Assembly: GCA_011389985.1 (NCBI GenBank)
Contig: JAABTH010000011.1
Span: 1 to 64,000, forward strand
Direction of reading: 5' to 3'
From: Bacillota bacterium
Lineage (GTDB): Bacteria > Bacillota > Dethiobacteria > DTU022
DNA: 64,000 nucleotides
This document shows positions 37,605 through 60,139 of the stretch, piece by piece. A program made the translations under genes and the position numbers. Every line of letters starts with the position of its first letter. Positions within the stretch are counted from its first letter, which is position 1. The notes below the pieces were generated by a model, which was given only the letters and a program-made list of their open reading frames with translations, ran no database searches and was not told the origin of the DNA.

Positions 37605-39032
37605 ATGCATAACCAGGGAAGAATAACCTGTAAATCCGGTTTGGGAACTGTTACGTTCTTAGTTACCGTTATCTTAATTTTTATCATCTCATTTTCTGCT
37701 GCTTGCGCGCCGATGAGCAGTCCCGGTGATATTAATGAAGACGGTAAGGTTGATGTAAGGGATGTTGTAATGGTTATGAAATATGTTCTGGATCTGCGTA
37801 CTCTGACTGATGATCAGCTGAAAACAGCTGATTTAAACAATGATGGCGTTATTGATGTGAAGGATGCAACTAAAATGATGCAGCTTTCGCTTGGTTTAAA
37901 TGATCATGTTGACGAAGAGTTTAAACTGGGCAGTGAGGTATTATTTGATAAAATGTTCTACCTGATTCAGGATAAAAAAGTTGGCCTGGTCACTAACCAG
38001 AGTGGAGTAAACGGCAGTGGAAAAAGTACTATTGATTTGCTGTTTGAATCCACAGGGGTGGAACTTATTGCTCTCTATGGCCCTGAACACGGGATAGATG
38101 GCAAGGCTGGCGCCGGCGATTATGTGGAATCTTACACTCACCCCGAATTGGGAATACCGGTCTACAGTTTGTATGGACAAACAAGGATGCCCACTGAGGA
38201 GATGCTTGATGATATTGAGGTGCTCATTTATGATATTCAGGACATTGGTGCGCGTTCATACACCTATATTTCCACCCTAAACTATTGTATGATTGCCGCT
38301 GAAAAGTATAATCTTCCCCTTATTGTGCTTGATCGCCCGAATCCGCTGGGTGGATTGATCGTTGATGGTCCGATGATGGAGGAAAAGTTTAAATCATTTG
38401 TAGGAGTTGATATTCTGCCCATGGCTCACGGTATGACTGTTGGGGAGCTGGCCCGATATTTTAATCGTGAAATTAATGCAGAAGTGGTCATAGTTCCCAT
38501 GGAAGGCTACGATCGGACAATGATTTTCCAGGATACCGGACTCTCCTGGATTCAAACATCACCAAACATTCCTGATATTGATTCTGTCTTTGGCTATATG
38601 GCAACAGGTTTGGGTGAGAATACAGGGGTGTTTCAGGCAGATCAGTTTAAGTGGATTGGCGGAAAGGGACTTGATGAAAGTGAATATGCCGATCTACTGA
38701 ACAGCGCCGGTTTGAAGGGGATAGAATTTATTCCTGAAAGAAGAGGGGAGGCCGGTGGTGTCAGGTTAAAGATAACCGATTACCATCTTTTCAACCCGGC
38801 CCGTAGTGGCATTTATGCCCTGACCTATGCATTTGCCCTGGGTGATTTTAATGTGCCAAAAAGTAATGAAACAAACGTTATGTTTGATAAGATCATGGGG
38901 ACTGCAAAGATGGGAGAATATCTGGAAGCAGGTCTTAGCCCGCAGGAAATAGAGACGCTATTTGCCCCAAATATTGAAAGCTTTAAAGCAATAAGAAAAG
39001 AATATCTTCTGCCGCAGTATGATCCGGAATAG
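37605..39032 (+). CDS. Dockerin-bearing DUF1343/NamZ-like exo-N-acetylmuramidase lipoprotein
   Basis: A 475-residue exported protein. A signal sequence ends in a lipobox-like SAAC (about residue 35). Residues about 42-105 are a type I dockerin with two intact calcium loops (DINEDGKVDVRD and DLNNDGVIDVKD). Residues about 115-475 are DUF1343, whose Bacillus member NamZ releases terminal MurNAc from peptidoglycan; LYGPEHGIDG, IYDIQDIGARSYTYI and LDRPNPLGG are conserved. It should act outside the membrane in wall turnover or recycling. A dockerin on this enzyme is unusual. The matching cohesin is not in the window. Confidence 0.9.
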   Translation: MHNQGRITCKSGLGTVTFLVTVILIFIISFSAACAPMSSPGDINEDGKVDVRDVVMVMKYVLDLRTLTDDQLKTADLNNDGVIDVKDATKMMQLSLGLNDHVDEEFKLGSEVLFDKMFYLIQDKKVGLVTNQSGVNGSGKSTIDLLFESTGVELIALYGPEHGIDGKAGAGDYVESYTHPELGIPVYSLYGQTRMPTEEMLDDIEVLIYDIQDIGARSYTYISTLNYCMIAAEKYNLPLIVLDRPNPLGGLIVDGPMMEEKFKSFVGVDILPMAHGMTVGELARYFNREINAEVVIVPMEGYDRTMIFQDTGLSWIQTSPNIPDIDSVFGYMATGLGENTGVFQADQFKWIGGKGLDESEYADLLNSAGLKGIEFIPERRGEAGGVRLKITDYHLFNPARSGIYALTYAFALGDFNVPKSNETNVMFDKIMGTAKMGEYLEAGLSPQEIETLFAPNIESFKAIRKEYLLPQYDPE

Positions 39033-39171: not shown

Positions 39172-39477
39172 TTAATCTACAATATCCATCATTTTACCAC
39201 AGCAAAGGGGGATGACATCTCCTGCTTTTAAGGATAGGACTTTATTGCAGGTTTTACAGTATACCTGGGTGTCGTGTTCAACCCTTTCCTCTGTAAAAGT
39301 TGAATTTTCAGATTCGAGCCCTTCAATGTAGAAGGAAGCGCCTTTATCGTTTTTAGCCGGAACATATTCACCGATAGGAACAAGCTTCCTCGTATCCCTG
39401 ACACAGTCAATTATGATTTTTCTATAAGTAAAGATTACGGCGGCTGAAAATAATAACCCCTGCCCCATAAAGGGCAA
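39172..39477 (-). CDS. Small Cys-rich zinc-ribbon-like protein, start uncertain
   Basis: Up to 101 residues; not assigned to a family. The C terminus has VYCKTCNKVLSL and IPLCCGKMMDIVD, a CxxC...CC arrangement like the iron- or zinc-binding ribbons of desulfoferrodoxin N-terminal domains. The frame overlaps the end of the ABC permease gene by about 55 bases. No good ribosome-binding site is seen for the ATG at 39477, so the true start may be a non-ATG codon nearer 39420. It follows the MORN-ABC ATPase and permease on the same strand and is probably part of that operon. Confidence 0.55.
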   Translation of the reverse strand: MPFMGQGLLFSAAVIFTYRKIIIDCVRDTRKLVPIGEYVPAKNDKGASFYIEGLESENSTFTEERVEHDTQVYCKTCNKVLSLKAGDVIPLCCGKMMDIVD

Positions 39478-40222
39478 GGAATATGGCAGCTGAAACGAGG
39501 CAGAGGGTTATAATAGATTGTTCCCCGGTGACAATTGCATTTGCGTCTAAGAGAGAGTAAAGTGTAAAATATTTAAGCCACTGATTGCTGTCACCGATAT
39601 TTCGCAGCATATTTATTACAAAGAAGAGAATGGGGATACCGCCACCTAGTGCGAGTGAATATTTTGCTTCATTGAAAATACAGGAAGAGAAGAAGCAGAT
39701 AGAGCTGATAGCCAGGGTTAGGAAGATCGTTCCCAGGTTAAGTTTCAGAAAGGCTGAAATATCCATTTCTCCCGGGAACATTGCTTCACTTAGAGCTAGC
39801 CCGGATCCTGTATTAATAATTAACAGTAAGGTAACGCTCGCTGCCATATAAAAAGCCTGAGTAGTAATAATTTTAACCCTCGTATTAGGGCTAGCAAGCA
39901 GGTAGGCCATGGAACCACGATCAACATGGGCAGCTACAAGGCGGTTGGCCAGAATGATGCAGTAGATGAGTGGAAAAATAATTATAATAAAACCATAGTA
40001 GTACAGGGCGATAAAGGTTACCAGGCTGGTGGCAGTATCACTATAACCAAAAGCTTCCATCATTCCCTGCGGCATTGAATCAATAAACTGGTTCATTGCT
40101 TCAACACTATCCGGATCATACATTCCAATCATGACACTCATATACATCAGCAGAATGGCAAAAAAAATCAAGAAGATGATCCAGCTTGATTTTGCGGTAG
40201 CTTTTAAAAGAGAAAAATTCAT
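39422..40222 (-). CDS. ABC-2 type transporter permease
   Basis: A 266-residue integral membrane protein with six predicted helices, the build of ABC-2 exporter permeases. The N terminus (LKATAKSSWIIFLIFFAILL) and an internal region ending AHVDRGSMAYLLASPNTRVKI match permeases of the NosY/bacitracin-export type. It is the partner of the MORN-ATPase gene, whose stop overlaps its start. The pair would form a homodimeric exporter with two ATPases. Cargo is unknown. GGCGG lies before the ATG. Confidence 0.88.
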   Translation of the reverse strand: MNFSLLKATAKSSWIIFLIFFAILLMYMSVMIGMYDPDSVEAMNQFIDSMPQGMMEAFGYSDTATSLVTFIALYYYGFIIIIFPLIYCIILANRLVAAHVDRGSMAYLLASPNTRVKIITTQAFYMAASVTLLLIINTGSGLALSEAMFPGEMDISAFLKLNLGTIFLTLAISSICFFSSCIFNEAKYSLALGGGIPILFFVINMLRNIGDSNQWLKYFTLYSLLDANAIVTGEQSIITLCLVSAAIFLALYGAGVIIFSRRNLYL

Positions 40223-46062: not shown

Positions 46063-46219
46063 AGTTACTCTAGAATTATTTCTTACGCTTAATCCTTCCG
46101 GATAATACAACTGGATCATAAACCGGTTAGCTAAAGCCATGCCGGAAATTTTTTTTCGCAATTTCTGGAAAGGTCCTCACACTGGTGAATCATAGCAAAT
46201 AAATTGGGAGATATTGATC

Positions 46220-48562
46220 ATGACCCCTGAAATCACTCTGACATTTGCAATTTTGCTATTTGCGATTATTCTTTTTGTAACGGAAATCCTGAGGGCTGAT
46301 CTTGTGGCGCTGCTGGTTCTTGTTTTGCTGGTTTTGGCCGGTCTTGTATCGCCCGAAGAGAGTATATCCGGTTTTTCAAACCCCGCTGTAGTTACAATCT
46401 GGGCCGTATTTATTTTATCGGCTGGATTGGCACGCACCGGTGTGGCTGTTAGGCTGGCAGATCAAGTGCTGCGCCTGGGGGGAAAAGGAGAAAGCAGGCT
46501 GCTTGCCGTATTAATGAGCAGCACTGCCGTGGTTTCGGCATTTGTTATCAACGTAGGTGTGGCGGCGATGTTTTTGCCGGTTACTCTGGATATTGCCCGT
46601 AGGACAGGCCGTTCGGCATCCCGATTACTGTTGCCAATGATTTATGGAACAACTGTAGGCGGGATGATCGTGTTGATCGGAACTTCATCTAATTTGGTAG
46701 TCGTTGATTTTTTGCGAGAAGCGGGTATGCGTCCCCCCGGTTTGTTTGATTTTACTCCGGTGGGAATTGTCATCCTGGTGGTTTCAATAATTTACATGCT
46801 GTTAATTGGACGGAGGATTCTTCCCGAAAGAACAACTCCTTCAGTGGATAATATCCAACCGGGTCGAGATTTCAGATTTCATTATGATATTGAAGAACGC
46901 CTTGCTCTGATTACTATCCCCGGCGACAGCCCTTTAGCCGGCAAGACCCTGGCGGAAAGCCGTTTTGGCAGAGCCCTCGGTTTAAATATTTTAAGTGTAA
47001 TGCGTGATGCAGGAACTCACCACATCCCTAAACCTGATTTAAAGCTGGAAACCGGTGACCGTTTACTGGTATTGGGTCGTCTGGATGTAATAGATCAACT
47101 TTCCGGCAAACCGGTGGTGATGATTGAAGACGATGCCCCGAAGGCATCTTGCCTGTTTTCAGAGCGTGTCGGCATGATTGAGCTTGAAGTCGATGAAGAT
47201 TCTGTTTTTAATGGCAAAACTCTGGTTGAACTTGATGCCCGGCATAAGCTGGGAGTAAATTTGCTGGCATTGCGGCGTGGTGATTTGGTTCGTCGGACAA
47301 ATTTGCAGGATGTCAAATTTGAGTCGGGTGATCATCTTCTCTTCAGAGGCTCGTTTGAACACCTGCAGTCTTTACAGGGTCATGACGGGTTTTGCCAGAT
47401 TAACGATTGTGATCCTGAAGAATATAGCCTTGATGAACGCTTATTATATTTGCGCATACCAGAAAAATCGCCTTTGGACGGCAGCACTCTTGAAGATATG
47501 CGACTTGCTCCGGCTTATGGTATATCGATAATGAATATAATTCGTGGGGATCAGGAGTTCCTGATACCAGAGCCTGATATGCGCCTGCAAGAAAATGATT
47601 TGCTGGTTGTCGAAGGTCGACCTGTTGACATCGATATTTTGCGGGGCCATCAGACTCTAAAGATTGAACGCAATCCCGAAGTAGATTTAAAAGATCTTGA
47701 GACGGATTCACTTAGTGTAGTTGAAGTTATGCTGTCACCGCACACAACGCTTACCGGAAAGACTTTGCGTCAGTTGAATTTTCGGGAAAAATTCGGTGTT
47801 TCCGTTTTAGCGATCTGGCGGGGCGACAGTGCTTACAGGACTGGTCTTAATGATATGTCCCTGCAATTTGGAGACGCCTTGCTCTGTTATGGCACGAGAG
47901 AAAAGTTTGAATTACTGGCACGGGACAGTGATTTTGTAATTTTAACCCTTGATTACCGGGAAAAGCTGCTTGTTAAAAAGGCGCCATTAGCGGGGCTGAT
48001 TATGGCTGGAGTATTGGCAGTGGTGGTATTAAATTGGCTGCCGATTTATGTGGCTGCCATAGCCGGGGCGCTTTTAATGATCATAACCCGTTGTCTTTCT
48101 GTTGAAGAGGCTTACCGGGCGATAGAGTGGAAGGCTGTGTTTTTAATTGCAGCGATGCTGCCCCTGGGGATGGCTATGCAGCAGACAGGCGCAGCCGTAC
48201 TGGTTGCCGGCGCCGTAATGGATCTAGTCGGATCATATGGTCCGACGGCAATTTTAGCCGGTATAATGACGTTGACCCTTATTCTAAACCAGTTTATTCC
48301 CAGTCCTGTCAATGCCGTTGTAATGACTCCGATTGCCATTGCATCAGCAACCGGTTTGGGTTTATCTCCCTACCCTTTTGTAATGGGTATTGCTTATGCT
48401 GTAGCTTCCAGCTTCATGACTCCTGTTTCACATCCGATCAATATAATGGTGATGAGCCCTGGCGGATACCGGTTCAGTGATTACTTTAAAAATGGGTTAC
48501 CTTTAACCCTGATAGTTCTTATAGTCAGCGTTCTGCTTTTGCCGGTAGTATTTCCTTACTAA
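46220..48562 (+). CDS. SLC13-type permease with four RCK_C (TrkA-C) domains
   Basis: About 780 residues. An N-terminal membrane half (about 1-200) with SSNLVVVDFLREAG, a cytoplasmic block of four consecutive TrkA-C-like repeats (about 230-580; each ends in a form of GDxLLxxG), and a C-terminal membrane half with SPVNAVVMTPIAIA and SHPINIMVMSPGGY. Such proteins carry sulfate, phosphate or dicarboxylates with Na+. TrkA-C domains often bind a nucleotide or c-di-AMP. Four copies are more than the common two. ATG 46220 follows GGGAG; a TTG two codons earlier is less likely. Confidence 0.92.
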   Translation: MTPEITLTFAILLFAIILFVTEILRADLVALLVLVLLVLAGLVSPEESISGFSNPAVVTIWAVFILSAGLARTGVAVRLADQVLRLGGKGESRLLAVLMSSTAVVSAFVINVGVAAMFLPVTLDIARRTGRSASRLLLPMIYGTTVGGMIVLIGTSSNLVVVDFLREAGMRPPGLFDFTPVGIVILVVSIIYMLLIGRRILPERTTPSVDNIQPGRDFRFHYDIEERLALITIPGDSPLAGKTLAESRFGRALGLNILSVMRDAGTHHIPKPDLKLETGDRLLVLGRLDVIDQLSGKPVVMIEDDAPKASCLFSERVGMIELEVDEDSVFNGKTLVELDARHKLGVNLLALRRGDLVRRTNLQDVKFESGDHLLFRGSFEHLQSLQGHDGFCQINDCDPEEYSLDERLLYLRIPEKSPLDGSTLEDMRLAPAYGISIMNIIRGDQEFLIPEPDMRLQENDLLVVEGRPVDIDILRGHQTLKIERNPEVDLKDLETDSLSVVEVMLSPHTTLTGKTLRQLNFREKFGVSVLAIWRGDSAYRTGLNDMSLQFGDALLCYGTREKFELLARDSDFVILTLDYREKLLVKKAPLAGLIMAGVLAVVVLNWLPIYVAAIAGALLMIITRCLSVEEAYRAIEWKAVFLIAAMLPLGMAMQQTGAAVLVAGAVMDLVGSYGPTAILAGIMTLTLILNQFIPSPVNAVVMTPIAIASATGLGLSPYPFVMGIAYAVASSFMTPVSHPINIMVMSPGGYRFSDYFKNGLPLTLIVLIVSVLLLPVVFPY

Positions 48563-48632
48563 ATGCAGGATATTAGTAATATTTGTTGAAAGGATGTCTA
48601 ACTATAAACAGAACCGGGGGGAGATGATCCTT

Positions 48633-48683
48633 ATGATTATATTTAAACATATTAATGGTGCATTAAATGGTGCATTAATATGA
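48633..48683 (+). CDS. Possible 16-residue leader peptide overlapping the MFS gene
   Basis: An ATG preceded by GGGGGGAG opens a frame encoding MIIFKHINGALNGALI; its TGA overlaps the ATG of the MFS gene (ATGA). The MFS start itself lacks a ribosome-binding site, so the leader may provide translational coupling. The GGTGCATTAA direct repeat makes up most of its coding sequence. It is too short to be confirmed by sequence alone. Confidence 0.5.
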   Translation: MIIFKHINGALNGALI

Positions 48684-49996
48684 AAGATATATTTGGAATT
48701 AAAAGGTCGATCAAAGATGATACAGTTAAAACAGAAGAGCAAAGTTTTTCCTATGCAAAAATCTGGTGGATTGGCTTCGGTTTTCTCGGTGTTCAGTTGG
48801 TTTTTACAACCTATAATGCTTTCCTCCCGCTTATGTATCGGGAGTTTTTTGAATCAAGGGCAATAATCGGTCTATTAATGGGAACTGACAATTTAATCGG
48901 ACTTTTGCTCATACCGATTATCGGCGCCTGGTCCGACAGGGTTAACTCACCGCTGGGGCGCCGGTTACCTTTTATGATTGTAGCAGTACCCGTGGCGGCG
49001 CTCACTTTCTTTGCCATACCTTTTGCTTCTGCCATACTCTGGACCCTAATCATAACCGAAATTATATTTACTGCAGCGATGCACTCTTACAGGGGGCCGG
49101 TTATTACACTGATGCCCGATCATACTCCGCCTGAAAAGCGCTCTGCCGCCAATGGTATTATTAACCTGATGGGAGGCTTAGGGACGCTGATAGCTTTCGG
49201 TGGTCTTTCGCTTCTTTATGATATCGATCCACGCCTTACTTTTGGCATTGGTGCTTTTGTGCTTATAATTACTCTCTTCATTGTCTGGAAAAAAGCTGAC
49301 AGACATCCCCCCTATGTAGACAATACCCTGGTTGCATCAAGAAATCCGATCAGGGAAGCAATCGATGGTATAAAAGTGTTGCTGAAGCCTGAAAATTTTG
49401 GGCAGTTTCTGATATTGGCGGCCATGCTCACCTATTTTATCGGTTTTGCCGGGCTTGATGCCATGTTTCCCATATACGGTGTTGAAACCCTGGGGCTTAC
49501 TGAGGGCCGCGCGGCATTTATTTTGACTACCTTTGCCGGCTCATTTCTTGTATTTGCCCTGCTTGCAGGTTTTATAGGTACACGTATAGGTAAGATACCG
49601 ACGATGCTGCTGGGTCTGGCAATTGTGCCTGCCATGTTTTTATTGGCCATTCCGGTTCGTAACCCCAATGTTATAGCTGTGATATTTGTATTTGCCGGTT
49701 TTGCCTGGGCGCTGGTCAATGTTCAGGCCATGCCTTTAATAGCAGATCTGGGCGGTCGCGACAGAATCGGTTTTTATATAGGCCTTTATTATGTTTTTAC
49801 AATGACCGGACAAATGATTGGACCAAGCGTTCTCGGACTATCAATGGATTTAATAGGCAATCACGGGATGTTTATTGCAGGCGCAGTTGTTTATGCCATC
49901 GGTTTTCTTCTGTTGCGTGCAGGTCAGAAAAGGCTTGGTAAGGATCCTGAAGAAATTGCCCGCGAAGTTAAAGAAAAAGCCGGCATAAAAAGTTGA
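48680..49996 (+). CDS. MFS transporter, SLC45/GPH-like
   Basis: A 438-residue membrane protein with 12 predicted helices. SDRVNSPLGRRLPFMIVAVP after helix 2-3 is the conserved loop of the glycoside-pentoside-hexuronide/sucrose transporter branch, and SYRGPVITLMPDHTPPEKRSA is typical too. It probably moves a sugar or glycoside by cation symport. The gene starts in the stop codon of a short leader frame and has no ribosome-binding site of its own. No sugar enzyme lies next to it. Confidence 0.9.
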   Translation: MKDIFGIKRSIKDDTVKTEEQSFSYAKIWWIGFGFLGVQLVFTTYNAFLPLMYREFFESRAIIGLLMGTDNLIGLLLIPIIGAWSDRVNSPLGRRLPFMIVAVPVAALTFFAIPFASAILWTLIITEIIFTAAMHSYRGPVITLMPDHTPPEKRSAANGIINLMGGLGTLIAFGGLSLLYDIDPRLTFGIGAFVLIITLFIVWKKADRHPPYVDNTLVASRNPIREAIDGIKVLLKPENFGQFLILAAMLTYFIGFAGLDAMFPIYGVETLGLTEGRAAFILTTFAGSFLVFALLAGFIGTRIGKIPTMLLGLAIVPAMFLLAIPVRNPNVIAVIFVFAGFAWALVNVQAMPLIADLGGRDRIGFYIGLYYVFTMTGQMIGPSVLGLSMDLIGNHGMFIAGAVVYAIGFLLLRAGQKRLGKDPEEIAREVKEKAGIKS

Positions 49997-50078
49997 ATTG
50001 CCCTTGCCAACAAGAGTTTTTGATTGTTTTCACCAAGTATAAAGTTACTGTAATGAGCCGCAAAGATTGCTGCAGATG

Positions 50079-50106
50079 TTGCAATATTTGTGTAATTATG
50101 TATAAT
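50079..50106 (+). promoter_or_regulatory. Sigma-A-type promoter ahead of the CHAP-dockerin gene
   Basis: TTGCAA and TATAAT with a 16-base spacer, about 83 bases upstream of the ATG at 50189. The leader between contains short inverted repeats (CAGTA...TACTG around CCC...GGG), and the start codon has no clear ribosome-binding site, so some structural control of translation is possible. Confidence 0.55.
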
Positions 50107-50188
50107 AGTATAAATATAGACAGAAAATAATCCAGGGAGAATATCGTCGCGGACAGTACCCAAGCCGGGTCGGTAAATTACTGAGTTT

Positions 50189-51265
50189 ATGAAGAACACT
50201 ATCAGGGTTGCGATAATTTTAATTGCTGTTTTACTTCAATTGAGTTCCTCCGTATCTTCGTTTGAGGGTTATACGCCGCTTACCAGGGAAGAGTTTGATC
50301 GTTGGCCTTACCTTCCGGAATATACTGTTCTCAATTTTTTCCCATATAAGGGCAATAACTGCACCTGGTATGCACATGGCCGGATGATGCAGCTTGGTTA
50401 TTGTAAATATACTTTGGACAGCATGCGCTATAATGCAAATACCTGGGCAGATAATGCCTCCAGGGGCGCAACTATAACAGATACTCCTGTGGCAGGCTCA
50501 ATTGCTTTTTGGGATAGTGGCGTTTATTATGGCAGCAGTTTGGGACATGTCGGGGTAGTCGAAGCTGTTAGGGAAGATGGCGCCATCCTTGTTTCCGACT
50601 CAAGCAGCAGTAGCAGTGCATACAACATAAAGCAGATTAATCCGGGCAGCAGTATCTGGCCGACCGCTTTTATATCAGTTCCACTGAGCCGGGAAAAATC
50701 AGGGCTTTTTTCTCATGGCGAGCATGTCAGGACAACTGTCAACAACCTGAATTTTCGCCTTGAAGGGGCAAATCAGCATCCCGTTTTGCTTTCAAGAGAC
50801 ACAATTGCTGAGATCAGGGAGCATGTTAGCAATGGAATTTATGCTTCCCAACCGGGCAGCATGTCATCATATCATTACTGGTGGTACGCGGCGGTTGAGC
50901 TTGAAGAGGGGATTAAATACGGCTGGCTGGCTGAAACTTTTTTGGAAACTACCGGTTTGATTGACTCTTCATCACCACCTTTTTCTGATGTTTCTACTGA
51001 AAAGGAACCACCGGTTGAACCTGATCAGGACTATCTGCCGGAGCAGGAACAATTGCCAGATCTAAAATATGGCGATGTCATAGGCAATGGCCTGGTAGAT
51101 GTGAGGGATGTTACCCTGGTTATGCAGCATGTACTGAAAGTGAAGGAGCTTGATCTGGGTCAGTTGGTGTCTGCAGATGTTAATCGTGACGGTGTAATCG
51201 ACGTTTTGGATGTAACGTTAATTATGCGTTACATTTTAGGTTTCATCACTTCACTGGAACAATAA
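50189..51265 (+). CDS. CHAP-SH3-dockerin exported cell-wall hydrolase
   Basis: A 358-residue secreted protein. A signal peptide covers about residues 1-26. Residues about 45-175 are a CHAP amidase/endopeptidase domain with catalytic Cys in NNCTWYAHGRM and His in LGHVGVVE. Residues about 180-260 form an SH3-like wall-binding domain. A Pro/Glu-rich linker follows, then a C-terminal type I dockerin (about 295-355) whose second calcium loop (DVNRDGVIDVLD) is intact while the first (DVIGNGLVDVRD) is degenerate. It should cut peptidoglycan cross-bridges. It is the second dockerin-bearing wall enzyme in the window. Confidence 0.92.
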   Translation: MKNTIRVAIILIAVLLQLSSSVSSFEGYTPLTREEFDRWPYLPEYTVLNFFPYKGNNCTWYAHGRMMQLGYCKYTLDSMRYNANTWADNASRGATITDTPVAGSIAFWDSGVYYGSSLGHVGVVEAVREDGAILVSDSSSSSSAYNIKQINPGSSIWPTAFISVPLSREKSGLFSHGEHVRTTVNNLNFRLEGANQHPVLLSRDTIAEIREHVSNGIYASQPGSMSSYHYWWYAAVELEEGIKYGWLAETFLETTGLIDSSSPPFSDVSTEKEPPVEPDQDYLPEQEQLPDLKYGDVIGNGLVDVRDVTLVMQHVLKVKELDLGQLVSADVNRDGVIDVLDVTLIMRYILGFITSLEQ

Positions 51266-51292
51266 TTAACCTGCCTGCTCTGCCCTGCGGCG

Positions 51293-51961
51293 TTAGAAGC
51301 CCCGGGTTTGACCCTGCCAGGGTGGTTCTTTTCTCTCTTTAAATTCTTCAACTCCAGGCCCATTTAGGCTGCGAAGCCTCCAGATGCCATATATGTAGGT
51401 AATAATCAAGACAATAATGATTACAGGCCACCCAAGGAGTGTATTTGCCCAGGCCAGCGCCGCTGCATCTCCTCCCCGGTATAACAGGTACTGGATCATG
51501 AGACGCATGGCAAAAAAAGCAGACCAGAACAAGGTTACTTCACGGTAAGCAGGTTTTATGTCGCTGCGCCAGAACCACTCGAGAGGCCATCCCCGAGTAA
51601 TGTGACTTGCCCACGCAGCCAAAGGTTTCCCGGCGATCAGGCTTGCCAGGGCCAGCAGCAAAAGAAGGGCGCTGCTTAAAATGGCCGGGATAAAGTAACT
51701 TGCTGCGCTGCGGGTTAATACAGCCAAACCGGAAGCCAGGGCCACACCAAGAAGGCCCCCCAGTGCATAAAACCAGTTTTGCCCGCTTATGAGACGTATT
51801 ATACCAAGGCCTGCAGCCAGGCTCAGGGCAACTATAGCGGCAGTATCAAGCCCTAAAAATCCATTGGTAATAACAAATACCAGCGGCGGTAACAAGGCAT
51901 CCAAGGTTTTTCCTGAAACTACAGATTTTAATTCTTCACCAATTTCATTAATACTGGGCAT
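51293..51961 (-). CDS. DUF3159 family membrane protein
   Basis: A 222-residue protein with five to six hydrophobic segments. The features KPLAAWASHITRGWPLEWFW, then TLFWSAFFAMRLMIQYLLYR, and the Gly/Ala-rich first helices match DUF3159, a family known mainly from Actinobacteria and Chloroflexi-like genomes. Function is unknown. ATG start; GGAAGGA lies upstream. It follows the DUF1475 gene by 31 bases and is convergent with the CHAP-dockerin gene. Confidence 0.85.
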   Translation of the reverse strand: MPSINEIGEELKSVVSGKTLDALLPPLVFVITNGFLGLDTAAIVALSLAAGLGIIRLISGQNWFYALGGLLGVALASGLAVLTRSAASYFIPAILSSALLLLLALASLIAGKPLAAWASHITRGWPLEWFWRSDIKPAYREVTLFWSAFFAMRLMIQYLLYRGGDAAALAWANTLLGWPVIIIVLIITYIYGIWRLRSLNGPGVEEFKERKEPPWQGQTRGF

Positions 51962-51992
51962 GTAAAATAGTCCTTCCGGGTATCAATCTGAA

Positions 51993-52340
51993 TTACCTGT
52001 TTAAATTGTAGCGGGCGCCCATAAAAAAAACCGCCCAGTCATCACCGCTGCGGTAAAGAGCTATCAAAGTATAAAGACTTCCGGCGAAAAAACCGAAAAC
52101 CATCATCAGTATTACCCATATTGCGGCCGAAAATACGTTTTTTTCACGGAATACAATCCAGATAGAAAAGAGGGCGAATCCGACATAAAGATCAACCAGG
52201 GAAACAATTCCCCAGGGATTTGCGAGAAGCGCGGCTCCGTCAATACTGAAGCTCCCATTAACAAAACCATTAATCAGAACAGCTGTCATGGCAATTAGGC
52301 CCAGCCAGGCAATTATTTTTGCTGCTTTCAATTTAATCAC
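51993..52340 (-). CDS. DUF1475 family membrane protein
   Basis: A 115-residue protein with three hydrophobic segments. NPWGIVSLVDLYVGFALFSI followed by WIVFREKN is the DUF1475 hallmark. Function is unknown. AGGAG precedes the ATG. It is divergent from the MORN-heliorhodopsin gene, sharing the 188-base region between them, and is followed by the DUF3159 gene, so the three genes may be jointly regulated. Confidence 0.88.
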   Translation of the reverse strand: MIKLKAAKIIAWLGLIAMTAVLINGFVNGSFSIDGAALLANPWGIVSLVDLYVGFALFSIWIVFREKNVFSAAIWVILMMVFGFFAGSLYTLIALYRSGDDWAVFFMGARYNLNR

Positions 52341-52395
52341 TCCTAAAGAAAAATTTGATACTGCGTACCTGTCAGCAAATTATGATAAATAAGAC

Positions 52396-52423
52396 TTGAA
52401 CTTAATAAGGTTAATGGTAGTAT
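52396..52423 (+). promoter_or_regulatory. Candidate promoter for the MORN-heliorhodopsin gene
   Basis: TTGAAC and TAGTAT with a 16-base spacer; a perfect TATAAT overlaps at 52423-52428. The start codon is about 105 bases downstream, and the GC-rich leader between could fold. The placement is plausible but not unique. Confidence 0.4.
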
Positions 52424-52528
52424 ATAATTACCGGTACCCGGCAGTCAATAGCGGCGAACAACGCGGCTGGAAAATTGGGAAGTGCGACTCAGAGAACAGA
52501 TATCACAGATCTTTTATGAAGGAGGGTT

Positions 52529-53707
52529 ATGATGAATAAACAGAATTATACGTATCCTGACGGAGCAATTTACAACGGTGAATGGAAGAATAACATGCGC
52601 CATGGCCAGGGAATCTGGACAAGGCCTGACGGAACAAGGTATGCCGGTGAGTGGCAAAATGACAAACCGGGTGGAATGGGCACGCTGGTGAAACCGGATG
52701 GCAGTATTTATACCGGAGAGTGGCAATCCGGTAGACGCCATGGCCAGGGCATTTATACCAGACCGGATGGTACTAAGTCAAGTGGTGAATGGAGAGAGGG
52801 TTCCCTGGTTGATGAAAAGCCTCTTGCGCCGGATAAGGCAGAAAGATGCAGAGAACTGGAGAGATCCTATCATCAGCTGAAACGAAAGGTCGCAGAACTG
52901 GAGGGAAGTAAAAAGCAGAAAAAAACAAGACAAATAAGTTTCGCCTATTTAAAAAGATTTAATCTGACCATGGGGATATTACACTTTTTACAGGGGGTGG
53001 CAATGCTCGTTATCGCACTTACAGTCGATCAGGTAAAAGCATTTAAAACCCCGGTCTGGTCATATTTTCTTGAGTTTAACACTGACATTATGCGCCTGGT
53101 TACCAGGCCGGAGCAGATTGCTGAAGTGCCCTTTGGCCTCTTTGTGTCATTTTTCCTGCTGCTATCGGCGCTGGCTCATTTTATCATTGTAATGCCTAAG
53201 GCCAATGAAATTTATAACCGTGATCTTAAAAAAGGTATAAATGTTTTCCGCTGGTATGAGTACTCCTTAAGTTCATCCCTGATGATTATTCTGATTGCAA
53301 TGCTTTTTGGGGTTTATGATATTGGCGCGTTAATTGCCATCTTCGTTCTGAATGCAACAATGAATTGGTTTGGCCTGTTGATGGAGAAATTAAACCAGTA
53401 TACAGAGAAAACAGTGTGGTCGCCTTTTGTATTTGGCTCAATAGCTGGAATAGGCCCCTGGGTTATTATTATTATGCATGCCCTTGGCAATGCTGACCCG
53501 GGTGAGGTGCCCTGGTTTGTATACGCTATAATCGGCTCATATTTTATCTTCTTTAACCTTTTTCCGATTAATATGGTTTTACAGTACAAAAAAGTTGGCA
53601 GATGGGCTGATTATCTTTATGGTGAGAGAGGCTATATCATTTTAAGCTTGGTAGCCAAAAGTGTCTTGGCCTGGCTGGTTTTCTTTGGTGTAATGCAACC
53701 CACCTGA
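52529..53707 (+). CDS. MORN-heliorhodopsin fusion photoreceptor
   Basis: A 392-residue protein. Residues 7-91 are four MORN units (PDGTRYAGEWQNDKPGG is one), residues about 96-134 a charged coiled-coil-like linker, and residues about 138-392 a seven-helix heliorhodopsin. The retinal Lys is K377 in SLVAKSVLAW (helix 7). E244 in RWYEYSLSSSLM matches the counterion E107 of heliorhodopsin 48C12; H217, S373 and probably H152 match H80, S237 and H23. The 27-residue H-E spacing is exactly that of 48C12; E-K is 133 against 134. Heliorhodopsins have a cytoplasmic N terminus, so the MORN part faces inside. GGAGGG precedes the ATG (two adjacent ATGs). No retinal-synthesis gene is in the window. Confidence 0.97.
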   Translation: MMNKQNYTYPDGAIYNGEWKNNMRHGQGIWTRPDGTRYAGEWQNDKPGGMGTLVKPDGSIYTGEWQSGRRHGQGIYTRPDGTKSSGEWREGSLVDEKPLAPDKAERCRELERSYHQLKRKVAELEGSKKQKKTRQISFAYLKRFNLTMGILHFLQGVAMLVIALTVDQVKAFKTPVWSYFLEFNTDIMRLVTRPEQIAEVPFGLFVSFFLLLSALAHFIIVMPKANEIYNRDLKKGINVFRWYEYSLSSSLMIILIAMLFGVYDIGALIAIFVLNATMNWFGLLMEKLNQYTEKTVWSPFVFGSIAGIGPWVIIIMHALGNADPGEVPWFVYAIIGSYFIFFNLFPINMVLQYKKVGRWADYLYGERGYIILSLVAKSVLAWLVFFGVMQPT

Positions 53708-53741
53708 TATTATTATCATCACTGAAGTAATGGCTTACCCG

Positions 53742-53775
53742 GGCCGGGATCTTATCTGTTGAAAAGATTCCGGCC
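53742..53775 (+). terminator. Terminator after the MORN-heliorhodopsin gene
   Basis: GGCCGGGATCTT pairs with AAGATTCCGGCC (one G-U) around a 10-base loop; TTCTTCCTGG follows. It lies 34 bases after the heliorhodopsin stop and could also end the convergent AhpD-like transcript. Confidence 0.6.
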
Positions 53776-53899
53776 TTCTTCCTGGCTTGCTTATTATTTT
53801 AAATTTGATATGCTCTCATTATTGACCAATAACAACTATGAACCAGCGGACATTTGTCAATATCTGTTCAGGGCTGTATTATTTTCAGTTTGACTCTGA

Positions 53900-54298
53900 T
53901 CAATCCTTCTCAGGCGACACATCCGGTTCTACCTGGTAAGCGTCGGCAAGGCGGTTTGTGCCGCAGAAAACATCTACGACTGCCACAATTTCCGAGAGAG
54001 CTTCATTATCCAGACCGAGCCGCTTCACGGCGGCACTGTGTGAGTGAATTCAGTAAACACAATTATTGGTTATTGAAACAGCAAGGGCAATGATTTCTTT
54101 TGTACGTTTGTCGAGCTTCCCCGGCTGCATGACAACTTTTAATTTATTCCACGTTGCTTCCAGGTGGTCGGGATTAATGGCAAGGGCCTGCCAGAAGTTC
54201 GGTATGAAATCAATTTCTTTTGTTGCCTTGATATCATTGAAAACTTCTCTAACCTTACCGGTTGCTTCCTGCTCAGATACCGTTTTTAACAGGGCCAA
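53900..54298 (-). CDS. AhpD-like/carboxymuconolactone decarboxylase-family selenoprotein (in-frame UGA)
   Basis: Read through an in-frame TGA at 54050-54052, this gives 132 residues. The first 82 (from a TTG start with GGAGG upstream) are an AhpD-like domain with RTKEIIALAVSITNNC; after the UGA the frame continues IHSHSAAVKRLGLDNEAL to a normal TGA stop. The family motif is CxxCxxxH, and here it reads C-V-Y-U-I-H-S-H, so UGA sits exactly where the second Cys of the redox pair belongs. A SECIS-like hairpin follows 15 bases later. AhpD-like proteins act in thiol-dependent peroxide removal, and Sec-containing members are known. Selenocysteine genes selA-D are not in the window. A plain nonsense mutation is the alternative. 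Confidence 0.82.
54019..54034 (-). promoter_or_regulatory. Bacterial SECIS-like hairpin
   Basis: On the minus strand, 15 bases after the UGA, GCCGC pairs perfectly with GCGGC around the loop CGUGAA. The distance and the G in the second loop position meet the usual rules for bacterial SECIS elements read by SelB. The stem is short (5 pairs, with a further G-C beyond a U-U mismatch). Confidence 0.65.
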
Positions 54299-54435
54299 TT
54301 TTTTAAACCTCCAATCTCTTATTTTGAAACATATTCTTCAGCTGTCTCTGTTAATCATAGAATCAGGGAATATTACAGTTTATTTTAATCAGCAGAATCT
54401 ATCCAGAAACTTACCCTGTCATGAATAACTTGATG

Positions 54436-55317
54436 TTATAAAGGGTTCTCAAGTGCACTGACCGGGAAATAGCAAATTCCTGTTGTGCCGGGGCCTGAGT
54501 GCACTCCAAGGGCAGGGGATAATTCAGCTACTAATGATTCTACGCATTTAACACGTTTTTCCAGCATAGATCTGATTATTTCGATCTGATCAGGAGCTGC
54601 TGCATGAAGGTAGGCAACTTTAATCTTGCTACCGCTGCCAACAGTTTCTTCGACCATGTTAACCATAGCTTTATAAACTTTTTTTCGACTGTGTTCCCGG
54701 CCAAGGGGTACTATAACACCATCACGCATGCCGATGAGCGGTTTTATATTTAAGACGCTACCCATCAGGTGGGCTGCACTGCCAATACGTCCACCCATAT
54801 GTAGATATTTGAGTGTATCTGCAGTCTGAATCATATTTGCGGTCGGCACTATACGATTAAGTAAGCATATGATTTCATCCACACTGGTGCCCCTGTGTGC
54901 GGCACGGGCTGCTTCAATGACCATCCAACCATGACACATAGCCACATTAAGTGTATCAAATGCTTCCACCCTAAGGCCGCCCAATTTTTCTTCGGCCATT
55001 TCTCCTGCCAGTTTGGCTGCCTGGTAAGTACCGCTGCTTTTTGAAGTTATATGTATGCTGATGATGTTTTTGTAACCTTCAGCCGCTAATAGCTCATAGG
55101 TTTTCAAAAAATCATCCGGTCCCGGGTAAGCTGTACTTGGCAGTTTTTCTAAGGTTGGTAGCCATTGATAGAATTCATCCTGCCTGATGTCAATAAGATC
55201 GCGCCAGACTTTATCCCCGTGGTGGATATAGATGGGAACTAGATGAATATTTAATTCTGCCCTTATTGCTTCCGGAATACTTGCAGAGCTGTCACAGACT
55301 ATTGCAATATCATTCAT
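54436..55317 (-). CDS. DegV family fatty-acid-binding protein
   Basis: A 293-residue cytoplasmic protein of the DegV/FakB family. FakB members present fatty acids to the kinase FakA for phosphorylation. The opening IAIVCDSSASIPEA, the SKSSGTYQAA loop, TLKYLHMGGRIGSAAHLMG and the final GPGTTGICYFP are all conserved. GGAGG precedes the ATG. No fakA is adjacent. Upstream of the AhpD-like selenoprotein gene on the same strand, 137 bases apart. Confidence 0.95.
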   Translation of the reverse strand: MNDIAIVCDSSASIPEAIRAELNIHLVPIYIHHGDKVWRDLIDIRQDEFYQWLPTLEKLPSTAYPGPDDFLKTYELLAAEGYKNIISIHITSKSSGTYQAAKLAGEMAEEKLGGLRVEAFDTLNVAMCHGWMVIEAARAAHRGTSVDEIICLLNRIVPTANMIQTADTLKYLHMGGRIGSAAHLMGSVLNIKPLIGMRDGVIVPLGREHSRKKVYKAMVNMVEETVGSGSKIKVAYLHAAAPDQIEIIRSMLEKRVKCVESLVAELSPALGVHSGPGTTGICYFPVSALENPL

Positions 55318-55528
55318 AAAGGAACCTCCTCTGAATGAAAATGTTTAAGGTTACACTGTAAAGATATTATCACACATATAACATCAAGCCAAAGGCATTT
55401 TAACCGATGATGTTTGAGTGAATATATCTGTGACGGAACGGGTAACAAAAAAAATACCTGCCAGGTATTGACTCAGTGTAATTCACAGGTCCGTTTCCTG
55501 GAACTGCGCTATAAGGTATAATTAAACT

Positions 55529-56758
55529 ATGGAACTTTTATCACCTGCCGGTAACCTGGAAAAACTTAAAACAGCGGTTCGTTTTGGTGCAGATGCAGTC
55601 TACTGCGGGGCTGGCTCATTTTCTCTGCGCGCTCCTGAAACTTCTTTTTCCCTGGATGAACTAGCCGAAGGGGTCAAATTTGCCCATGAACAATGGTGCA
55701 AAGTGTACCTTGCCATGAATATATTTCCATATGATCAAGATTTGGATGCGATGAAAGCCTATTTAGCTAAAGCTGTAAAAATTGGTGTCGATGCCGTTAT
55801 TGTATCCGATCCGGGAGTAGTTTCATTAGCCCAGTCACTTAATGCAGGAGTTAAAATTCACCTCAGCACTCAGGCCAATACTACAAACAGCGAATCGGTC
55901 AGATTCTGGCATAATCAGGGAGTAGCCAGAATTGTTTTGGCCCGTGAGTTGAACCTGGATCAAGTTGGCGCAATCAAGCAAAGTGTTCCGGAAATGGAAC
56001 TTGAAGTATTTGTTCACGGCGCAATGTGTATTGCCTATTCTGGCCGTTGTCTGTTGTCCAGTTTGATGAGCAGCCGTTCGGCCAATCAGGGTTTGTGCAC
56101 GCAGCCCTGCCGCTGGGAATACCGGATACACGAGGTTGGCCGAAATGAGGATCTGACTATTACTGAAGATGAGCGAGGGACTTATTTGCTAAACTCGAGG
56201 GACTTATGTATGATTGAGCACATTCCCGCACTGGCGTCTGCAGGAGTTGACAGTCTGAAAATAGAAGGCCGGATGAAAACAACGTATTATGTTGCAGCAA
56301 CAACTAGAGCTTACAGGTTGGCCCTTGATAATTTCGCTGCGCCAGGTAAATCTTATAAATTTAACCCTGAGCTATTAGCTGAGCTGACCAAGGTATCGCA
56401 CCGTCCGTACAGCACAGGATTTTATCTTCCTGATCTCGTTGATAAAACTGAGCACACTGAAAACTCTTCGTACATCAGGGGTTATGATTTTGTTGGAATC
56501 GTAGACAGTGATAATCTGGAAGCTGGACATTTAACAATTAAAGCCCGGAACAGGTTTGCCGTGGGAGATGAGCTGGAGATTTTAGATCCGCGCTCTGATG
56601 ATGTTACCGTGATCAGAGTTGAGCACATAAGTGATTGTAAAACCGGGGCAGAGATAAATGCTGCCCATAATGGTTATATTGTAGATGTTGCCGGGCCCCG
56701 TGAAAACCGAAATAGAGTAAGTTCCGAAGCGATCGTCAGGAGAAAAGCTGATTTCTGA
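55529..56758 (+). CDS. U32 family peptidase (TrhP/RlhA-like)
   Basis: A 409-residue protein. ELLSPAGNLEKLKTAVRFGA and DAVYCGAGSFSLRA at the start, and GRCLLSSLMSSRSANQG with CTQPCRWEY, are the U32 signature. Members with this layout carry an iron-sulfur site and take part in RNA hydroxylation (tRNA ho5U by TrhP, rRNA by RlhA) rather than clear proteolysis. The C-terminal beta domain (about 320-409) is present. The start is ATG; no ribosome-binding site is obvious, but TATAAT lies 10-15 bases upstream, so the mRNA may be nearly leaderless. Confidence 0.92.
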   Translation: MELLSPAGNLEKLKTAVRFGADAVYCGAGSFSLRAPETSFSLDELAEGVKFAHEQWCKVYLAMNIFPYDQDLDAMKAYLAKAVKIGVDAVIVSDPGVVSLAQSLNAGVKIHLSTQANTTNSESVRFWHNQGVARIVLARELNLDQVGAIKQSVPEMELEVFVHGAMCIAYSGRCLLSSLMSSRSANQGLCTQPCRWEYRIHEVGRNEDLTITEDERGTYLLNSRDLCMIEHIPALASAGVDSLKIEGRMKTTYYVAATTRAYRLALDNFAAPGKSYKFNPELLAELTKVSHRPYSTGFYLPDLVDKTEHTENSSYIRGYDFVGIVDSDNLEAGHLTIKARNRFAVGDELEILDPRSDDVTVIRVEHISDCKTGAEINAAHNGYIVDVAGPRENRNRVSSEAIVRRKADF

Positions 56759-56976
56759 GAGAAAAATTATTTATGTACAATAAAACCATATAAGATCATT
56801 ATTCATAGTCCCGTAAATTTACTGCTTGTAATTATTGTCTAGCTTCATAGCGGGGCTCTCCATATAACACTTGTTTTCCTTATGGTTTACCTTCCTTATA
56901 TCTTAACTATCTTTTTAGTCCCCAATATTGATAGCTTCGGGTATAATAGAGGTTGTGGTTTTAGGAGGTGTCTTTA

Positions 56977-58578
56977 TTGTTCTGGGAAATTACTTTCAGT
57001 TCATTGGGCGGCTTAGGCCTTTTTCTTTTTGGCATTCAAATCATGGCCTCTGGAATGCAAAAAGCAGCCGGGGATCGTTTTCGGCGCATTCTTGAGGTGC
57101 TGACTAATAAGCCCATACTTGGAGCGCTAACTGGTGTGGTGGTTACCTTACTGGTCCAAAGCAGCAGTACCGTTACTGTAATGGTAGTTGGATTTGCCAA
57201 TGCCGGTTTAATGAACCTTTCCCAGGCAATAAGTGTTATTATCGGCGCCAATATTGGAACAACAATAACTGCTCAAATTGTATCATTTAAAATCGGGGTT
57301 GTAATTTTTCCCGCTATCGGCATCGGTTCGCTGCTTAATTTTTTTGGCCGCCGGCGCATCCATCGGTACCTTGGTCAGACGCTTCTCGGTTTTGGTTTGC
57401 TTTTTCTAGGCATGACGACTATGTCTGAAGGGATGAGTCCGCTGAGAGACCTGGATGCTTTTCATAACTTGCTGATGCAGTTTAGTGTTTATCCTTTGTT
57501 GGGAATTCTTTGCGGAGCGGTCTTTACCGCTTTAATTCAGAGCAGCAGCGCTGCAACAGGCGTTATTATTGCGCTCACAATGCAGGATCTCATACCCTTT
57601 CATTCAGCAGTACCGTTGATTCTCGGAACAAATATCGGAACATGTGTAACCGCCATATTGGCCGGAATAGGCGCTAATGTAGCTGCAAGAAGAGCTGCTG
57701 TTGCTCATGTGCTGTTTAATACTTTTGGTGTTATCTTAGCACTAATATTTCTGGATCCATTTACTGATTTGATGATGCAGACAGCCAGTACGATTCCCCG
57801 CCAGGTGGCAAATACCCATACAGCATTCAATCTCTTTGGGACAATTATTTTCATAATATTTATCAGGCAGTTTACTGCCCTGGTATGTAAAATAATACCA
57901 GGGGATGATACAAAATTGGATTTCGGACCCAAATTTCTTGATCCTCGCATTTTGAAAACACCTGCTGCAGCCATAGGCGGGGTTAAGCAGGAGCTATTGC
58001 GCATGGCTATTATTGCCCGGGAAATGCTTGAAGAGGCAATGCAGGTATTTATAAAAAGCGATTTGAAAAAGGTTCAACATATTGAACAGATGGAAGAGTT
58101 GATCAATGATTTGGAAAAAGAAATAAATATCTACCTGGCTGATGTTTCCCAGCATTCCATGACACGCGAACAGTCTGTAATGATCGGCAGCCTGATGTCT
58201 GCGGCTAATGATCTGGAACGGATTGGCGATCATGCAGAAAATATCTTAAGGCTTTCCGAGGAAGCAGTTGAAAACAGGCTGCCTGTTTCAAATGCCGCCC
58301 TAGAAGAATTAACCGATTATTATAAAAAAGTTGATTCTATGCTTGAGAGGGCGACAATTGCTTTTGAAAAAGATGACGGGGAGATGGCTGCTCAGGTTAT
58401 AAAAGATGATGACGAGGTTGATGATCAGGAGAAAATACTCCGCCACGAACATATAGATCGCATCAATACTAAGAAGTGTTATCCAGCCGTGGGGGTAATT
58501 TACCTGGATCTGTTAAGTAACCTGGAACGAGTTGCAGACCATGCTACGAAAATTGCTCATATGGTTTTAGAAAATTAA
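56977..58578 (+). CDS. Na/Pi cotransporter family protein with PhoU-like domain
   Basis: About 533 residues. The N-terminal membrane part has two NaPi repeats with the QSSS motif (LVQSSSTVTVM and LIQSSSAATGV), and the cytoplasmic C-terminal part (about 340-533) is PhoU-like, helical, with ANDLERIGDHAENI and LERVADHATKI. It resembles YjbB/NptA phosphate transporters. TTG at 56977 is chosen, with GGAGG eight bases upstream; a GTG nine bases earlier overlaps that site. It may export or import phosphate. Next downstream is a GH130 phosphorylase-like gene. Confidence 0.93.
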   Translation: MFWEITFSSLGGLGLFLFGIQIMASGMQKAAGDRFRRILEVLTNKPILGALTGVVVTLLVQSSSTVTVMVVGFANAGLMNLSQAISVIIGANIGTTITAQIVSFKIGVVIFPAIGIGSLLNFFGRRRIHRYLGQTLLGFGLLFLGMTTMSEGMSPLRDLDAFHNLLMQFSVYPLLGILCGAVFTALIQSSSAATGVIIALTMQDLIPFHSAVPLILGTNIGTCVTAILAGIGANVAARRAAVAHVLFNTFGVILALIFLDPFTDLMMQTASTIPRQVANTHTAFNLFGTIIFIIFIRQFTALVCKIIPGDDTKLDFGPKFLDPRILKTPAAAIGGVKQELLRMAIIAREMLEEAMQVFIKSDLKKVQHIEQMEELINDLEKEINIYLADVSQHSMTREQSVMIGSLMSAANDLERIGDHAENILRLSEEAVENRLPVSNAALEELTDYYKKVDSMLERATIAFEKDDGEMAAQVIKDDDEVDDQEKILRHEHIDRINTKKCYPAVGVIYLDLLSNLERVADHATKIAHMVLEN

Positions 58579-58663
58579 GCAGAAAATTATTTGAAATTAA
58601 TTTATGTGCATGGACATCAACAAATGTTTATAATATAGTGTCAGTAGCATTATATGGGGAGCG

Positions 58664-60139
58664 ATGTTTAATTTGGCCATACATGTTGATCGTAAGGATA
58701 TCAGGTTCTATCCTGACTCAAAAAGGGTAATTGCCCGTTATTTCTTTCCCGGTGGAGAAGAAAGGGCTTTAAGTATTATAAAAAAAATACTATCCATGTC
58801 TGAAGAGGATATTAGGTTCACTTTAAACCAGGTCCTCACTAACTTCTCGCAACGGCACCGCAATATTTCCAAGATCTACCGTAAGAACTTTAATAATGTT
58901 AAGGATATAATCAAGAAGGTGGAAGTTGAACCTGAAAAATTGTCAAAATCAGCCAAACTGTTGATTGGTTCTTACTTCACTATGGAGTATTCAATTGAAT
59001 CGGCAGCTTTTTTTAACCCCAGTATCATGGAGGATCCCGACCAAACATCTCTCTGCGAGGGGGAAAAAAGGGTAATTGTCAGCTTTAGGGCCACAGGGGA
59101 AGGCCACATATCATCAATTGTATTCAGAAGCGGAATAATCGATCAGGATAACAATCTTCTGTTTAAAGACCCCGGGGAGTTAGTTGATATACCTGAAGCG
59201 ATTAAAAGACATGTATACAATAAGAAGGAATTTGTAGACAAACTATCGGAAATGCATATTCAGGAGAACCTGGTTGGTATGGTTATGGAACACCTAAAGG
59301 ATCATTTTACTTACGGGGATCTGCAGGCTAGTATCGTTCAGGCGATAGAGAGCAATAATCTTGATGCGGTTCAGAGAAAAGTGGTCCAAGATGTTAACTG
59401 GCTGGCGAATTCACATTACGAGATAAGTTTTTCTCTTGATACAGCCCTGTCTGAAAGGGTTATATTTCCTATCTCATATACAGAAAGCAATGGAATCGAA
59501 GATGCCCGCTTCGTAAAATTTACTGAAAACGATGGCTCTGTAATTTATTATGCTACATATACAGCTTTCAACGGATTTACAATTCTTCCCAAGCTGATTG
59601 AGACAACAGATTTTTACACCTTTAAGGTTTTACCTATCCACGGAGAGTATGCTCAGAACAAGGGCATGGCCCTGTTTCCAAGAAAAATCAACGATAAATA
59701 TTGTATGGTTTCCAGGGTTGACGGTGTCAACAATTATATAATGTTTTCAGAAGACATTCATTTTTGGCGTGATGCCCAAAAAATTCAGGAACCGCAGTTT
59801 CCCTGGCAGTATATCCAGGTTGGCAATTGTGGCTCTCCAATAGAAACTGAAAAAGGCTGGCTTTTGCTTACTCATGGAGTCGGCTCGATGCGGCGGTATT
59901 GCCTGGGGATCACTTTGCTTGACAGGGATGATCCGACCAGAGTTATTGGCCAGACGCGTGAACCGCTTTTAGCGCCGAATGATGAAGAGCGCGAAGGTTA
60001 CGTGCCGAATGTGGTTTATTCCTGCGGAGCAATCATTCACAATGGTGAGTTGGTTATTCCATATGCCATGGCTGACTATGCTTCCACCTTTGCGACAGTA
60101 TCACTGGATGAACTTTTTGGGGAAATAGAATATTACTAA
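58664..60139 (+). CDS. Glycoside hydrolase family 130 protein (phosphorylase-like)
   Basis: A 491-residue protein. Residues about 240-491 carry the GH130 five-bladed propeller: GIEDARFVKF, TYTAFNG, GMALFPRKI, SRVDGVNN, GVGSMRRYCLGI and VVYSCGAIIHNGELVIPY. GH130 enzymes mostly phosphorolyse beta-mannosides. The N-terminal 200 residues are an extra domain that I do not recognise. GGGGAG lies 3 bases before the ATG. It is cytoplasmic (no signal peptide) and followed by the DUF815 ATPase after 39 bases. It could supply mannose 1-phosphate. Confidence 0.88.
   Translation: MFNLAIHVDRKDIRFYPDSKRVIARYFFPGGEERALSIIKKILSMSEEDIRFTLNQVLTNFSQRHRNISKIYRKNFNNVKDIIKKVEVEPEKLSKSAKLLIGSYFTMEYSIESAAFFNPSIMEDPDQTSLCEGEKRVIVSFRATGEGHISSIVFRSGIIDQDNNLLFKDPGELVDIPEAIKRHVYNKKEFVDKLSEMHIQENLVGMVMEHLKDHFTYGDLQASIVQAIESNNLDAVQRKVVQDVNWLANSHYEISFSLDTALSERVIFPISYTESNGIEDARFVKFTENDGSVIYYATYTAFNGFTILPKLIETTDFYTFKVLPIHGEYAQNKGMALFPRKINDKYCMVSRVDGVNNYIMFSEDIHFWRDAQKIQEPQFPWQYIQVGNCGSPIETEKGWLLLTHGVGSMRRYCLGITLLDRDDPTRVIGQTREPLLAPNDEEREGYVPNVVYSCGAIIHNGELVIPYAMADYASTFATVSLDELFGEIEYY

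Follow-up and report, generated by a model that had tools for sequence, protein, structure and literature searches.

The gene at positions 52529-53707 of the window (the whole 64,000-nucleotide stretch of DNA analysed here) encodes a heliorhodopsin carrying a MORN module, and of this we are nearly certain. The kind is already known and is not new. On the evidence of the sequences, MORN was fused to heliorhodopsin at least twice in one bacterial family; this second fusion and the ABC source of its cassette are, as far as the literature searched shows, additions to published knowledge. We propose that the protein is a photosensor whose cytoplasmic MORN arm docks a protein partner, possibly a MORN-bearing ABC exporter, and we give this proposal as a whole a probability of about 0.55.

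Domain architecture of the MORN-heliorhodopsin

The gene and its parts are as follows.

52520-52526, forward strand: Shine-Dalgarno sequence AGGAGGG of the gene (read directly from the sequence)
52529-53707, forward strand: MORN-heliorhodopsin gene, 392 aa (ORF reading, Pfam and NCBIfam profiles)
52541-52816, forward strand: MORN cassette, residues 5-96, four beta hairpins (Pfam MORN, model, Foldseek to 6t68/6t4r)
52835-52924, forward strand: linker helix, residues 103-132, with the basic end KKQKK before helix A (model helix, heptad count)
52940-53704, forward strand: heliorhodopsin domain, residues 138-392, seven helices and a beta hairpin in the A-B loop (PF18761, Foldseek)
53258-53260, forward strand: E244 codon, Schiff-base counterion position (E107 of 48C12), from the alignment, invariant in 85 sequences
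53657-53659, forward strand: K377 codon, retinal-binding lysine position (K241 of 48C12), from the alignment, invariant in 85 sequences

The open reading frame is complete, and its frame and coordinates were given exactly in the original prediction, which had also placed MORN units, a linker and a seven-helix heliorhodopsin in this single frame. We found the MORN cassette (residues 5-96), the helical linker (103-132) and a complete heliorhodopsin (138-392) in that order. The AGGAGGG lies 2 nt from the ATG at 52529 and 5 nt from the ATG at 52532; therefore, the second ATG may be the true start.

A profile search and a structure prediction of the whole protein, which the original prediction had proposed as checks, both agreed with this assignment. 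Pfam Heliorhodopsin (PF18761) matched residues 141-389 with E=7.5e-101 and 336.9 bits (cut-off 26.7), and NCBIfam HeR (NF038020) scored 319.8 bits against a cut-off of 100. The AlphaFold model, built on 85 sequences, has a pLDDT of 91.3 (it replaced a 16-sequence model with a pLDDT of 75) and consists of a heliorhodopsin fold and MORN hairpins. In Foldseek, the model matched the heliorhodopsins 7clj/6is6 with TM 0.92-0.93 by target length (7clj: TM 0.93, rmsd 1.8), and the MORN arm matched the MORN1 structures 6t68/6t4r (6t68: rmsd 0.9 over 89 columns).

Pfam MORN (PF02493) matched the cassette with E=4.7e-21. Three of its repeats are canonical and 23 residues long (14-36, 37-59, 60-82) and the fourth, at 83-97, is degenerate; the four MORN units claimed earlier are thus four hairpins in the AlphaFold model and not four canonical repeats. 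TbMORN1 and related MORN proteins (6t4r, 6t68, 6t69) share the MORN fold, but they are longer, eukaryotic and without a rhodopsin fusion.

Alignment to heliorhodopsin 48C12 (6su3) pairs H217 with H80, E244 with E107, S373 with S237 and K377 with K241, and the four residues are invariant across 85 aligned heliorhodopsins. This pairing had been predicted together with an identical spacing; the pairing stands, whereas the distance from E to K is 133 residues here and 134 in 48C12. The protein thus resembles 48C12 and TaHeR (6su3, 6is6) in fold, retinal lysine, counterion and the His and Ser positions, and differs from both in having the MORN arm and the linker. The best reading of the gene product is a retinal-binding photosensor of the heliorhodopsin family. 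Members of this family bind retinal, run through a slow photocycle and do not pump ions. They form dimers in which the N termini face the cytoplasm (PMC9529153). The basic KKQKK at the linker end, just before helix A, agrees with such an orientation, the topology itself being a prediction.

Relatives and selection

The 36 MORN-heliorhodopsins reported by Bulzu et al. 2021 all come from MAGs of Dethiobacteria from haloalkaline (soda-lake) sediments (PMC8612252). N-terminal MORN fusions in heliorhodopsins, which the original prediction had mentioned, are therefore published, and its heliorhodopsin with a cytoplasmic MORN module has the architecture described there, with the membrane side predicted. 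The window protein shares with the published ones multiple N-terminal MORN repeats, a complete heliorhodopsin and, by its named relatives, the bacterial group; it differs in having four hairpins where three repeats are typical, and no histidine-kinase neighbour. The zinc-ribbon heliorhodopsins of Thermoplasmatales (PMC8612252) likewise carry another domain at the N terminus of a heliorhodopsin, but both that domain and its host are unrelated to those of the window. We took the class name Dethiobacteria for the hosts from PMC8612252; the records of the window's relatives are mostly named Syntrophomonadaceae.

A heliorhodopsin match was found in 19 of the 98 genomes of the class. The four-hairpin cassette on a heliorhodopsin (type A) occurs as 13 intact genes, the window gene and 12 further orthologues. 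Two genomes, G004 and G010, hold decayed heliorhodopsin fragments at the orthologous place, and the gene of G038 is cut by a contig end. Three genomes have other heliorhodopsins, without MORN in G012 and G011 and with MORN in G007. No MORN was found on heliorhodopsins outside Dethiobacteria among about 70 named relatives. Between close pairs, dN/dS is 0.06-0.15 for MORN, 0.09-0.14 for the linker and 0.02-0.04 for the rhodopsin, so all three segments are under purifying selection. Since the 12 orthologues share the architecture and dN/dS is low, the gene is real and a chance frame is excluded.

Heliorhodopsins 73-80% identical to that of the window are also present in three records named Spirochaetales (L082, L081, L084) and one named Kosmotogaceae (L080), one of them on a 230-kb contig. 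Provided that the binning is correct, these diderm-named records are relevant to the view that only monoderms have heliorhodopsins.

Two independent fusions and the source of the second cassette

In a tree of 85 heliorhodopsin domains, which included the 13 type-A rows and G007, the type-A rows form one group (92/82) and join a MORN-less record named Kosmotogaceae at 100/97. G007 and its MORN-less sister G011 stand on the far side of the tree (100/100). By parsimony two MORN changes are needed, and a tree holding all 14 MORN rows together was rejected (AU p=2.9e-5).

Over 102 residues, the G007 cassette shares 81% protein identity with the cassette of a MORN-ABC ATPase from G005 (L154, ABC_tran E=4.3e-32), versus 46% with the window's cassette. 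At the DNA level, the region from -38 to +318 around the ATG of G007 is 82% identical to the G005 ABC gene, that from +343 onwards is 86% identical to the G011 heliorhodopsin, and that from -289 to -142 is 75% identical to the sequence upstream of the G011 heliorhodopsin gene. The simplest reading of this mosaic is that the 5' end of an ABC gene, ribosome-binding site included, was inserted before a heliorhodopsin. An assembly chimera is unlikely, as sequence like that of the G011 locus flanks the cassette on both sides. The main text of PMC8612252 states neither an independent origin of the G007 type nor an ABC-derived cassette.

MORN cassettes in other membrane systems

In the genome of the window, 35 MORN repeats are spread over seven genes: the heliorhodopsin, two MORN-ABC ATPases, a MORN-DUF4282 protein, a solo cassette, a lipoprotein-like protein and a MORN-only protein. 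Two of these genes are placed in the window as follows.

12259-12933, forward strand: MORN-DUF4282 membrane protein, its cassette 51% identical to the rhodopsin's and the nearest among those compared in the genome
40222-41463, reverse strand: MORN-ABC ATPase (DrrA type), candidate partner, with an ABC-2 permease at 39422-40222 (profile matches)

Both MORN-ABC ATPases, the one above and that on contig C8, adjoin ABC-2 permease genes, and the solo cassette stands after an ABC operon on contig C34. With only 40-41% identity, the type-A cassette of the window heliorhodopsin is more distant from the two MORN-ABC cassettes of this genome than from that of the MORN-DUF4282 protein. MORN-ABC ATPases were found in 10 of the 13 family genomes with a MORN-heliorhodopsin and in 10 of the 30 others (Fisher p=0.018, with kinship among these incomplete genomes uncorrected and the MORN-ABC frames Pfam-scanned in part), a co-occurrence that is only suggestive. 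The MORN-heliorhodopsin genomes G001, G003 and G034 (73-86% complete) gave no MORN-ABC match; this and the low cassette identity speak against the proposal.

By eye, further combinations of MORN repeats were seen in this family (L174, L182, L176 and L181), namely with protein-kinase-like sequence and with a different N-terminal domain (WFVYKNQKQKGPYTW...).

MORN proteins of known structure act as homotypic modules for protein interaction; they also bind other proteins and form homodimers, and they did not bind liposomes (PMC7725318). The original prediction had light changing how the cassette is presented to lipid or a partner; because the solved proteins bind protein and not liposomes, lipid would by analogy be the weaker half. 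Docking of the MORN arm to a protein partner is, in our view, probable.

The linker and the dimer

In the linker, the a positions are 107, 114 and 121 and the d positions 110, 117 and 124. Over 13 orthologues, 77% of the a/d residues are hydrophobic, compared with at most 55% in other registers, and the heptad is retained where the sequence is poorly kept (36% mean identity). The central a position is Asn in 8 of the 13 orthologues and Tyr in the window protein; Asn at this position is typical of parallel dimeric coiled coils. The type-B fusion of G007 lacks a coiled-coil linker, so not every fusion requires one.

Bulzu et al. proposed that the MORN part stabilises the dimer or docks to further MORN proteins (PMC8612252). 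According to the first proposal, the arm would only stabilise the heliorhodopsin dimer or, as a scaffold, anchor it in a membrane that is alkaline and fluid, without passing on any light signal. The linker heptad fits a dimer, MORN proteins form homodimers (PMC7725318), and only one class, a haloalkaliphilic one, has the fusion. Nevertheless, the MORN-less relatives of the survey above include several from alkaliphiles (Alkalibacterium, Halolactibacillus), and the donor of the second cassette is an ABC ATPase, which as a soluble subunit has no need to hold a rhodopsin dimer together. We consider this proposal rather unlikely and prefer docking of a partner.

Neighbourhood of the gene

The features around the gene are listed below, together with a gene found beside the heliorhodopsin in three other genomes.

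50189-51265, forward strand: secreted CHAP-dockerin protein, recurrent neighbour (Pfam Dockerin_1)
51293-51961, reverse strand: DUF3159 membrane protein that recurs next to MORN-heliorhodopsin genes, including the decayed copies of G004 and G010
51993-52340, reverse strand: DUF1475-type small membrane protein, divergent neighbour, at the same place in G001, G003, G005 and G004; in G014 one gene intervenes
53850-53861, no strand: joint of a ~1.9 kb deletion, from blastn against the sister genome G014, which holds a cNMP-binding/aspartate ammonia-lyase gene there
L049:6831-8762, L041:2300-4207 and L044:9236-11095, reverse strand: cNMP-binding domain fused to aspartate ammonia-lyase (TIGR00839 above cut-off), beside the heliorhodopsin in three genomes

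No gene is fixed beside the MORN-heliorhodopsin across all genomes, and no shared upstream regulatory motif was found before the 13 genes. The cNMP-binding/aspartate ammonia-lyase gene adjoins the heliorhodopsin on the same strand in G014, G036 and G039, but it is located elsewhere in G001 and is absent from the whole window genome, cleanly deleted at the locus; we rejected it as an obligate partner. DegV, a published heliorhodopsin neighbour, was likewise rejected as a conserved one, since among the MORN type it adjoins the gene only in the window and G014.

For some MORN-heliorhodopsins, light is proposed to feed into a two-component system by way of adjacent PAS/HisKA genes, and Bulzu et al. 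reported histidine-kinase genes near some, on other contigs (PMC8612252). However, none of the genes at 46214-60139 can be recognised as encoding a histidine kinase or a PAS protein, and the nearest PAS gene seen, for a PAS-GGDEF-HD protein, is 40 kb away and recurs beside no intact orthologue. For the window protein such an input is highly improbable.

Two other observations were made in the window. Dockerin-like repeats are present on two secreted proteins, at 50189-51265 (Pfam Dockerin_1) and 37605-39032 (by eye). In an AhpD/CMD-type gene at 53899-54298 (reverse strand), an in-frame TGA at 54050-54052 stands where CxxC would have its second Cys (NNCVY-TGA-IHSH). Both this TGA and the reading frame past it are conserved in G014 as well as G033, and a tRNA-Sec (72.5 bits) is present in the genome. 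From these features, the gene likely encodes a selenoprotein missed by ORF calling.

Retinal supply

Phytoene synthase was found in none of the 43 family genomes (7 controls matched), nor was an RPE65-type oxygenase (2 controls matched). Blh-type genes (PF15461) gave 0 of 98 class genomes and also 0 of 14 controls, with six unconvincing sub-cut-off matches in other heliorhodopsin genomes; this search has no positive control, and therefore the argument rests on phytoene synthase and RPE65. The original prediction had left retinal to come from elsewhere in the genome or from outside. With no synthesis gene recognised, the outside is the likelier, and retinal is probably imported or scavenged.

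The same result could mean that the protein is a relic or independent of light, the apo-protein being structural or on its way to loss, as the decayed copies in G004 and G010 might suggest. Against this, the lysine and the counterion are invariant in 85 sequences and the rhodopsin has the lowest dN/dS (0.02-0.04), and a supply of retinal from other microbes is proposed for Saccharibacteria rhodopsins (PMC9296517). A relic is thus quite improbable, and we retain the reading as a photosensor.

Proposed mechanism and significance

Like other heliorhodopsins, the protein would form a dimer in the membrane, its N termini pointing into the cytoplasm. Its retinal would be taken up from other organisms, the genome showing no route to make it. 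The linker helices may pair in the dimer and relay what light changes in the rhodopsin to the MORN arms. These arms would hold a protein partner, the most plausible being a further membrane system of the cell that bears MORN, for example an ABC exporter ATPase. Light would thereby tune the partner. Such light-dependent control of a docked partner falls somewhat short of an even chance.

Published cases show that heliorhodopsins can bind glutamine synthetase (PMC9529153) or an ABC exporter (PMC11109279) and regulate it. That the partner here is an ABC exporter is unlikely in itself; such exporters are the class to test first because the G007 cassette is ABC-derived, because of these published cases and because MORN binds MORN. 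A working model for the proposed mechanism is OcHeR-OmrDE (PMC11109279), in which a heliorhodopsin binds an ABC exporter and activates it by light. OcHeR, however, is reported to bind by its intracellular loops and belongs to a group in which the exporter is an operon neighbour, whereas the link proposed here is through MORN cassettes; no exporter gene shares an operon with the window heliorhodopsin, and the MORN-ABC gene lies on the opposite strand at a distance of 11 kb. More broadly, and a shade more doubtful still, the MORN cassette might be an exchangeable docking tag of membrane systems: tagged heliorhodopsins would bind tagged ABC exporters by MORN-MORN contact, export would depend on light, and G007 would be a natural tag transplant.

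For heliorhodopsins, the fusions name a docking module. The cassette derived from an ABC ATPase names a concrete partner class, in line with the published heliorhodopsin-exporter case. If the proposal is true, the MORN cassette would be a ready two-part optogenetic tag, and an anaerobe that makes no retinal of its own would control an exporter by light.
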